Source: Brevundimonas aurantiaca (GTDB taxonomy: Bacteria > Pseudomonadota > Alphaproteobacteria > Caulobacterales > Caulobacteraceae). From it: a stretch of 64,000 bases of DNA. The notes beneath the pieces were generated by a model. It had not been told where the DNA came from, did no database searches, and was given only the letters and a program-made list of their open reading frames with translations. This document shows, piece by piece, positions 48,530 to 63,822 of this stretch; positions within the stretch are counted from its first letter, which is position 1; every line of letters begins with the position of its first letter. The stretch spans positions 1 through 64,000 of the forward strand of contig NZ_JACHOQ010000008.1 of NCBI RefSeq assembly GCF_014199955.1, written 5' to 3'. The position numbers were made by a program, and so were the translations under genes.

Positions 48530-50065
48530 ATGACTCAAGCCATCCTTGAAGAACTGGAGCGCCGTCGCGCCGCCGCGAAACTGGGCGGCGGGGAAAAGCG
48601 TATCGCCGCCCAGCACGCCAAGGGCAAGCTGACGGCGCGCGAACGCATCGACGTTCTGCTGGACGAGGGCTCCTTCGAGGAGACCGACATGTTCGTCGAG
48701 CACCGCAGCCACGACTTCGGGATGGAGACGCAGCGCATCCCCGGCGACGGGGTGGTGACGGGGCGCGGCACCATCGGCGGGCGGCTGGTCTATGTCTTCT
48801 CCAAGGATTTCACGGTGTTCGGCGGCAGCCTGTCGGGCGCCCATGCGGCCAAGATCGTCAAGCTGCAGAAGATGGCCCTGACCACCGGCGCGCCGATCAT
48901 CGGCCTGTTCGACGCGGGCGGGGCGCGGATCCAGGAGGGGGTGGAGAGCCTGGCCGGCTACGCCGACATCTTCCTGCAGAACACCCTGGCCAGCGGCGTC
49001 ATTCCCCAGATCAGCGTGATCATGGGGCCGTGCGCGGGCGGCGACGTCTATTCCCCGGCCATCACCGACTTCATCTTCATGGTGAAGGACACCAGCTACA
49101 TGTACGTGACCGGCCCGGACGTGGTGAAGACGGTCACCAATGAGGTCGTCAGCCACGAGGATCTCGGCGGGGCGCGGGTCCATGCCGGCAAGTCGGGCGT
49201 GGCGGACGGGGCGTTCGAGAACGACCTGGAGGCCCTGTCGGAGGTGCGTCGCCTGATCGGCTTTTTGCCCCTGTCGAACCGCGAAAAGCCGCCGGTGCGC
49301 GAGAGCTATGACGAGCCCGAGCGGGACGAACCGAGCCTGGACACATTGATCCCGGCCAATCCGAACCAGCCCTATGACATGAAGGAGCTGATCCTGAAGG
49401 TGGTCGATGAGGCCGACTTCTTCGAGATCGGGGCCGACTTCGCCAAGAACATCATCTGCGGCTTCGGCCGGCTGGACGGCCAGACGGTCGGGATCGTCGC
49501 CAACCAGCCCCAGGTGCTGGCCGGGGTGCTGGACATCGATTCAAGCCGCAAGGCCGCGCGCTTCGTGCGCTTCTGCGACGCCTTCGGCATTGCGATCGTC
49601 ACCTTCGTGGACGTGCCGGGCTTCATGCCGGGGACCAAGCAGGAGTACGGCGGCCTGATCAAACACGGGGCCAAGCTGCTGTTCGCCTATGCCGAGGCGA
49701 CGGTTCCGAAACTGACCCTGATCACGCGCAAGGCCTATGGCGGCGCCTATGACGTGATGAGTTCCAAACACCTGCGCGGCGACGTCAACTACGCCTGGCC
49801 CACCGCCGAGATCGCGGTCATGGGCGCCAAGGGCGCGGTCGAGATCATCTTCCGCAAGGAGGCCGGCGATCCGGCCGCCCTGGCCGCGCGCGAGGCCGAG
49901 TACAAGGACCGGTTCGCCAATCCGTTCGTGGCGGCGGGGCTGGGCTACATCGACGACGTCATCATGCCGCACGGGACGCGACGGCGGCTGGTGAAGGCGC
50001 TGCGGACGCTGAAGAACAAGGTCCAGGAGAACCCCTGGAAGAAGCACGATAATATTCCGCTGTAG
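48530..50065 (+). CDS. pccB: Propionyl-CoA carboxylase beta subunit
   Basis: A 511-residue carboxyltransferase subunit. It has [38 protein letters not shown], the [17 protein letters not shown] oxyanion region and [31 protein letters not shown], ending HDNIPL as in other PccB proteins. With PccA it makes methylmalonyl-CoA from propionyl-CoA. In many alphaproteobacteria pccB and pccA are close neighbours; here they are separated by an unrelated gene. Confidence 0.95.
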
Positions 50066-50075
50066 GGGCCAACAG

Positions 50076-50819
50076 ATGCCCACCAAGGCTCTCAATAGGT
50101 TTATCGATAGGGTCGTCAGCTACGAGTCTGATCTCGAGCTGAACGATGTCTTGATACGCAATTTCTTGGACCGGCCAAATTCCCAAGACAGCATTGCGAT
50201 CGCAATCGGAGTTGATGCTGCGAGGTATCCGAGATTAGGAAGTCGAGTTAATTCTAAGAATTCGAGAAATATCGTTGGTCTTCACCTCAAGAGAACTTTG
50301 TACATCGGTTTTATAAAGGAGCTGTACGAAGATTTTGCTGACTATCTATCCACGTCTCTTGCGCGCGCTGCATTAGCTGGAGTCGATCCAAATCGCTTTG
50401 TGGGAGAAGTAAGATTGGATTTACATGCCACAGAGATCATCGGTGCAGGTTCGTGGGAAGCCGTTGTAAGGCTGATGAGTGAGAAGATTTTCCGCGCCCT
50501 AGAGAATGAGCGAAGCACAATCACGCTCATTGATAAAATTGGAAAACGACTCGGCCTTAGGCTGGAGAAAAATATACTAGATGCAGCAATTCCATATCTA
50601 GATGCCCGCCACATACTAGTTCATCGGGATGGTCTGGTGGATGAGATTTATAGGAATAAATACCCCACCATTGCTTTGGATGGTGACAAAATTGTCCTTA
50701 ATCATGTTGTTGTGACGGCGGCAAAGCAGGCAGTCAGAGCGCTTGCTGAGCACATTGATGAAAAGCTGTTGGCGCAGGGCCTCGTGCGAAATCGCGACAT
50801 AGCGGGTCAACGCGAATGA
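50076..50819 (+). CDS. HEPN-domain protein, probable foreign insertion
   Basis: A 247-residue soluble protein inserted between pccB and pccA. It is visibly AT-richer than its neighbours and uses codons they avoid (AGA, ATA, TTA). The C-terminal half contains ARHILVHRDGLVD, where Arg178-x4-His183 is the canonical HEPN ribonuclease motif, within a context (RH-x-LVH-x-DG-x-VD) typical of MAE_28990/RiboL-PSP-type HEPN domains. The N-terminal half is helical and unrecognised. No antitoxin-like partner gene is present. It may be an RNA-cleaving defence or toxin-like protein; function is inferred from the motif only. Confidence 0.7.
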   Translation: MPTKALNRFIDRVVSYESDLELNDVLIRNFLDRPNSQDSIAIAIGVDAARYPRLGSRVNSKNSRNIVGLHLKRTLYIGFIKELYEDFADYLSTSLARAALAGVDPNRFVGEVRLDLHATEIIGAGSWEAVVRLMSEKIFRALENERSTITLIDKIGKRLGLRLEKNILDAAIPYLDARHILVHRDGLVDEIYRNKYPTIALDGDKIVLNHVVVTAAKQAVRALAEHIDEKLLAQGLVRNRDIAGQRE

Positions 50820-50883
50820 TCAGCGCTCTCTGCTCAAACAACTTCTCCACACACCTCTGCGTTCTTCGCGAGTAGGGCAAAAA

Positions 50884-52863
<1,980 letters not shown>

Positions 52864-52880
52864 TGGTTGCCCTTCTCCTC

Positions 52881-53075
52881 TTTCGTCATCCTCCGGCGCT
52901 CCGCAGGAGCGACCGGGGGACCCAGCGGCGCCGTAGCGAAGCGAAGGCGAAAGCCCGCAGGGCGGCGCGTCAGCGCCTCGACGGGCAGGCCGGCGTGTGC
53001 GGCAGGTTCGCGCTCTCGCGCGCCGCTGGCTCCCCCGGTCTGCGCCGCTTCGCGGCTTGCCGGAGGATGACGAAA
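52881..53075. repeat. 195-bp composite inverted repeat (paired REP)
   Basis: TTTCGTCATCCTCCGG (52881-52896) pairs exactly with CCGGAGGATGACGAAA (53060-53075). A second inner pair, 52912-52931 with 53020-53039, matches at 19 of 20 positions. The element fills the 232-bp gap between pccA and mutA and has no convincing coding capacity. It may act as a folded mRNA element within the operon. Confidence 0.85.
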
Positions 53076-53095
53076 GTAGAAGGGGGGGCGGGCGC

Positions 53096-59300: not shown

Positions 59301-59402
59301 GTCATCCTCGGGCTTGTCCCGAGGATCCATAGACTCCGTCGAGGACGGTGCGCACCGGCTAAAACCGGGAGTATGGATCCTCGGGACAAGCCCGAGGATG
59401 AC
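59301..59402. repeat. 30-bp perfect inverted repeat (REP pair) between kbl and tdh
   Basis: 59301-59330 is the exact reverse complement of 59373-59402, with a 42-bp spacer; each arm is itself a palindrome with core CCTCGGG...CCCGAGG. The same family occurs at 63437 and 63793. It would form a large hairpin in a kbl-tdh transcript. Confidence 0.92.
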
Positions 59403-63436: not shown

Positions 63437-63822
63437 GTCATCCTCGGGCTTGACCCGAGGATCGGGTTGTCCGCAACTCAGAGTTGATGAGTGAGCGTCG
63501 ACCTTTCATCGCGACCTACATCGAGGCCAGCCGCCCACACGGCGTCCTCTACATCGGCATGACCTCGAACCTGTATGAGCGCGGCCATCAACACAGGAAC
63601 AGAGCGTTCGAAGGTTTCGCACGTCGCTATGGTTGCGGTCTGCTGGTCTGGTACGAGCAGTTCGAGCTGGTCACCGCCGCCATCCGCAAAGAGAAGGCGC
63701 TGAAGCGTTGGAATCGCGTGTGGAAGCTCGAGTTGATCGAGCGGACGAACCCTGAGTGGGTGGACCTTTACCCCAGTCTGTGCGGCTGGGCGCCCGATCC
63801 TCGGGTCAAGCCCGAGGATGAC
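63437..63822. repeat. 30-bp inverted repeats flanking a GIY-YIG gene
   Basis: 63437-63466 is the exact reverse complement of 63793-63822. Each arm differs from the arms at 59301/59373 by a few bases, so they are one REP family. The left arm lies 20 bp before the nuclease gene and the right arm inside its 3' part. The arrangement resembles a small mobile unit with its gene between terminal repeats. Confidence 0.85.

Follow-up and report, generated by a model that had tools for sequence, protein, structure and literature searches.

How does a gene of foreign composition come to lie inside a metabolic operon, and what might it do there? The question is raised by the first 64,000 nucleotides of a contig of Brevundimonas aurantiaca (NZ_JACHOQ010000008.1, positions 1 to 64,000; hereafter the window), where a gene for a 247-amino-acid protein (50076..50819) separates pccB, which encodes the propionyl-CoA carboxylase beta chain (48530..50065), from pccA, which encodes the biotin-carboxylase subunit (50884..52863). 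An initial annotation of this DNA had described the intervening gene as a foreign HEPN-domain gene that splits the operon in the same orientation. The arrangement is as claimed: the open reading frame is intact and starts with ATG, the pccB stop codon (50063-50065) lies to its left and the pccA ATG (50884) to its right, and all three genes are on the + strand. By comparing this locus with its relatives, we found that the site is a hotspot for accessory genes, tied to the 3' end of pccB, and that the window gene is its current occupant. The hotspot, visible only through such a comparison, is more surprising than the HEPN-like gene itself.

The foreign composition of the gene was also correctly recognized. 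Its G+C content is 0.47 both overall (GC) and at third codon positions (GC3), compared with 0.66-0.73 and 0.87-0.91, respectively, in 12 neighbouring genes. Rare codons make up 36 of its 248 codons, compared with 2-12 rare codons per neighbouring gene, and an index resembling the codon adaptation index is 0.18, against 0.65-0.81 for the neighbours.

A hotspot at the 3' end of pccB

A pccB gene was found in 118 of 131 genomes of the genus, and we examined the DNA 3' of it in 80 genomes besides that of the window. Across these 81 genomes the last 60 nt of pccB are highly conserved, and the left boundary of the hotspot is fixed at this 3' end; pccA is the right boundary in the clade to which the window belongs. 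The initial annotation had proposed comparing the pccB-pccA spacing in relatives. Among the 50 genomes in which pccA is the gene directly next after pccB, the window genome included, 16 have a bare junction, with only 11-14 bp between the two genes (for example TAGGCTCAGAC-ATG and TAAGGCCCAGAA-ATG), and the other 34 have an occupied junction of 323-2332 bp that mostly holds a single gene. In two of the occupied junctions (genomes G027 and G081) this gene is an LMWPc phosphatase gene alone. LMWPc is next after pccB in 25 further genomes, at a gap of 4-8 bp in 3 of them and of 427-1052 bp in 22, figures with which the gene coordinates agree. Insertions are thus found beside pccB whether pccA or LMWPc comes next, which places the insertion point at the pccB 3' end. 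We first read LMWPc as cargo and rejected this because in a large part of the genus it is the gene that normally follows pccB. As a separate observation, the match to the LMWPc gene after pccB falls into two pieces, separated or partial, in many species (e.g. G031, G121, and G036); the gene therefore seems to be broken or to contain a second insertion.

The cargo is as diverse as the site is fixed in position. Clustering of 56 inserts gave about 31 unrelated groups, the largest of which merges several families via composite inserts. Even where pccB is at least 99% identical to the window copy (eight genomes, the window genome counted), the cargo is unlike in nearly all. In 21 close species, the pccB-pccA distance exceeds its minimum by more than 150 bp in 18, whereas the eight other junctions measured are near-constant, barring pccA-mutA (up to 230 bp) and a few single outliers. 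Fixed flanks, unrelated cargo, empty sites, and more variation than at neighbouring junctions, the properties by which an accessory-gene hotspot is recognized, are all found here.

The distribution of the window gene itself points in the same direction. A gene of normal composition at this site in all relatives was the outcome that the initial annotation had set against a foreign insertion; instead, no homologue was matched in the other 130 genomes of the genus, and the 16 bare junctions show the site without an insert. Searches of 24 genomes from other families of the order, and of phage, plasmid, and viral-contig collections, likewise gave no match. In wider samples of 385 class genomes and 398 phylum genomes, the one full-length relative is in Alloalcanivorax gelatiniphagus (G704; 29% identity, E 9e-21). 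A second relative is in an Alcanivorax metagenome-assembled genome (MAG), and weaker ones are in three further genomes (G423, G604, and G895) and on Mesorhizobium and Methylorubrum plasmids. Several of these have mobile surroundings. The Alcanivorax MAG NORP25 (L115:16-5729) encodes an integron-type tyrosine recombinase and, near it, has five attC-like sites 0.3-0.8 kb apart, after which comes the HEPN-like relative; the Methylorubrum relative adjoins an integrase and IS30 on its plasmid; and the G604 relative, at a prophage edge, lies next to where a giant DarB-like phage protein ends.

A HEPN-like protein as cargo

The initial annotation had pointed to an intact HEPN RNase motif, R178-x4-H183, encoded at 50607..50624 (+) as R178-H-I-L-V-H183. 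By itself such a motif says little: shuffling the protein yields at least one R-x4-H in 45% of cases, and the protein itself has a second at residue 221, so the motif counts only through its conservation. This conservation is found. In an alignment of seven sequences, in which the other six relatives are 16-31% identical to the window protein, only six columns are invariant (P105, R178, H183, G186, K195, and G203), and they include both motif residues. The protein also resembles the HEPN superfamily in the features around the motif. A review of the superfamily describes an Rx4-6H motif that closes helix 3, a polar residue directly after the arginine, and inserts between helices 2 and 3 (PMC3710099). 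The residue after the arginine, N, D, or H in HEPN proteins, is H or D in all seven sequences. Less clear is the conserved acidic residue in helix 2 of HEPN proteins (Ex3[KR]): all seven sequences have an acidic residue at or beside the equivalent position, but the alignment may slip by one. An AlphaFold2 model (pLDDT 69.6, pTM 0.71) is all-helical save for short strands. In this model of moderate confidence, the motif ends a helix at 165-183, which is followed by a loop and then the last helix at 210-233, and extra helices lie between helices 61-102 and 165-183, as expected of an insert between helices 2 and 3. A fold search of a library of viral proteins (BFVD) gave one significant match, to an uncharacterised siphovirus protein (probability 1.00, TM 0.52).

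Several results weigh against assignment to the superfamily. No entry in Pfam, NCBIfam, or PADLOC matches the protein, no HEPN profile reaches it or its relatives, a Foldseek search of the PDB gave no match (best E 1.4), a PDB sequence search gave none either, and the model was built from three sequences. Compared with known members (PF05168, HEPN_Swt1 PF18731, DUF4145 PF13643, and the integron-cassette HEPN protein 3jrt), the window protein shares the R-x4-H motif, the polar residue after R, the position of the motif at a helix end before the last helix, and the standalone and mobile contexts, integron cassettes included, that are frequent in the superfamily (PMC3710099). It differs in that no family profile matches it, its relatives are unannotated and longer (about 250 amino acids), and 3jrt has no sequence match to it. 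The motif claim of the initial annotation thus stands, while the fold it proposed is supported by the motif, its placement, and a moderate structure prediction but not by any profile or PDB match. For this reason we call the protein HEPN-like and place it outside any named family; it is probably an RNase. HEPN proteins in integron cassettes have been described before (PMC3710099). If confirmed, the window protein would found a family not covered by current libraries.

Defence cassette, neutral passenger, or captured gene?

On balance we favour the explanation that the window gene is hotspot cargo that encodes a HEPN-like, single-gene abortive-infection effector. The gene would have been gained by horizontal transfer, and the conserved flanks would let cargo at the site be exchanged by homologous recombination. 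Without a promoter of its own, it would be expressed from the pcc transcript: its start codon lies 10 nt after the pccB stop TAG, which overlaps a ribosome-binding-like AGGGG (50063..50075, +). At its other end, a mini-ORF of 19 codons (50816..50875, +) overlaps the cargo stop codon (ATGA) and stops 8 nt short of the pccA ATG; on the basis of the sequence and a frame-chain analysis, it is a possible translation link that would pass ribosomes on to pccA. The protein is predicted to be a HEPN-fold, metal-independent RNase acting through R178 and H183. Its own N-terminal helical part would normally keep it inactive, until phage infection or stress freed it to cut RNA and stop growth. A stand-alone defence role, as the initial annotation had suggested, is plausible. 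Counting against this explanation, read-through expression and autoinhibition are pure inference, and expression of the gene, its toxicity, and phage protection are likewise predictions.

What the other inserts encode bears directly on this explanation. Pfam matches among the cargo include Fic, GIY-YIG, NucS_C/PD-(D/E)XK, CAP12/Pycsar TIR, DUF4325 with HATPase, a Swt1-like HEPN protein adjoined by DUF5343, DUF4145 with HEPN, DUF2199, DUF429 (just under the cutoff), DUF4760, and LMWPc. Six of about 20 scanned cargo families have PADLOC matches with E <1e-8 (PD-T7-4, PDC-S02, PDC-S23, PDC-S35/CBASS TIR effector, PDC-M34B, and DrmA), and among 10 flanking genes one matched, via a generic helix-turn-helix (HTH) profile. 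A defence-rich cargo is a lead at this stage. Also weighing against a defence role, many cargo families have no defence match, and the site is therefore described as a general accessory hotspot. Among the Fic genes, members of one family occupy the pccB-pccA junctions of G019 (L032) and G119 (L076) in opposite orientations, which suggests independent insertions.

Alternatively, the window gene may be an accessory gene with no role in defence, its product RNA-binding or otherwise accessory, in a near-neutral hotspot where any short gene that spares pccA expression survives. The many secreted, membrane, or unknown cargo proteins without a PADLOC match would fit such a site, as would the decayed inserts in two genomes (G099 and G150), which near-neutral cargo predicts. 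This alternative is a real one, less probable than defence, and it sits poorly with the retention of the motif R and H across distant relatives and with the several defence-type effectors among the cargo.

A different possibility, which we regard as unlikely, is that an undescribed cassette system uses the pccB 3' end as its dedicated attachment site. A homing-type GIY-YIG nuclease or unknown recombinase would cut the junction, repair would capture single genes with compatible stop and start ends, and only those inserts that keep translation going into the next gene would persist, the HEPN-like gene being one defence cassette among them. In favour of this idea, insertion begins at the pccB stop codon regardless of the next gene. 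Two cargo families, DUF4325/HATPase (2/2 copies) and DUF429 (4/4), were found only at pccB among the 131 genomes. In addition, a GIY-YIG lineage specific to the pccB-pccA junction, 60-100% identical and antisense to the operon, is present in 8 of 20 genomes searched (G018, G075, G126, G010, G094, G002, G025, and G128); copies located elsewhere in the genomes reach 60% identity at most. At the junctions in general, cargo starts no more than a few bases from the pccB stop codon, and its end mostly lies 0-10 bases ahead of the next start codon, often as TGATG, TGAATG, or TGACCATG. A chain of sense-strand frames comes to 23 nt or less from pccA in 30 of the 34 inserts, compared with only five when the inserts are reversed, a difference that follows mostly from the sense direction of the cargo. 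In all eight junction copies the sense strand is open across the whole GIY-YIG stretch. Selection on antisense inserts to keep a sense reading frame is only suggestive, because the antisense frame is also open over the gene in at least 11 of 20 copies elsewhere. Against a cassette system, the inserts have no convincing attC, repeated ends, or recombinase gene, the stop codon and following bases vary such that a shared core site is not visible, and homologous recombination can spread cargo without any such system. We also considered an integron cassette at the pccB site and rejected it, as no attC-like pair was found in 50000-50900 and no integrase gene between pccB and pccA, though a relative of the gene adjoins an integron array.

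Least probable of the alternatives is a toxin whose antitoxin is elsewhere or lost, as HEPN proteins are common toxins of toxin-antitoxin pairs (PMC3710099, PMC7641770) but no MNT or other antitoxin gene adjoins this one (its neighbours are pccB and pccA, as the initial annotation had noted, with only the mini-ORF downstream) and no shared partner gene was seen beside the Alcanivorax, plasmid, and prophage relatives.

The ends of the insert also settle the reading of a short repeat. GTAGGG does occur at 50062-50067 and 50872-50877, where the initial annotation had placed it, but its interpretation as a target duplication does not hold. Both copies are a TAG stop codon running into a ribosome-binding-like AGGG, a shared 6-mer arises between flanks of such lengths in 24% of shuffles, and the other inserts have no common ends.

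Known hotspots and further features of the window

Hotspots flanked by core genes have been described before, some of them with defence content and some without it (PMC5635113, PMC10250203). The pccB site resembles the core defense hotspots of Pseudomonas aeruginosa in its variable, partly defensive cargo between fixed core genes and in the lack of a single evident mobile element (PMC10250203). It is unlike them in lying within a metabolic operon with tight stop/start junctions and in its scale, 0.3-2.3 kb and mostly one gene, compared with 1-224 kb (median 26 kb) and multiple genes at cDHS1 (PMC10250203). Fixed core flanks, fast turnover, and integrase-free inserts are likewise shared with hotspots that lack mobile elements and are diversified by flanking homologous recombination (PMC5635113), but the pccB site is an intra-operon junction at which flank recombination is only inferred. 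Integron gene cassettes provide a third comparison: they too are single promoterless genes, mostly in one orientation, and the Alcanivorax MAG relative lies just past attC-like sites near an integrase, whereas the pccB site has no convincing attC or integrase and its inserts end right at the next start codon. We found no description of this site in the literature, nor of a variant such as this one, a small, mostly single-gene hotspot within a metabolic operon.

The entry of new genes into operons is regarded as rare (PMC5635113), and yet within a single genus a junction inside this operon has received cargo of about 31 unrelated groups. If confirmed, the pccB junction could serve as a simple marker for harvesting small, unannotated, and possibly often defensive genes, and as a natural test of how a foreign gene is spliced into a metabolic operon without silencing the next gene.

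Other parts of the window hold further features. The pccA-mutA junction (52864-53089) is also variable, at 0 to 230 bp among close species, and contains no gene. An inverted pair of the palindrome GTCATCCTCGGGCTTGTCCCGAGGATCCA lies between kbl and tdh (59301-59402); at up to 3 mismatches, the palindrome has four copies in the window, where none is expected by chance. Inverted copies of a palindromic repeat, at 63437-63465 and 63794-63822, bracket a GIY-YIG gene (about 63502-63801, +); similar units of gene plus palindrome are found repeatedly in the genus and resemble a mobile element.
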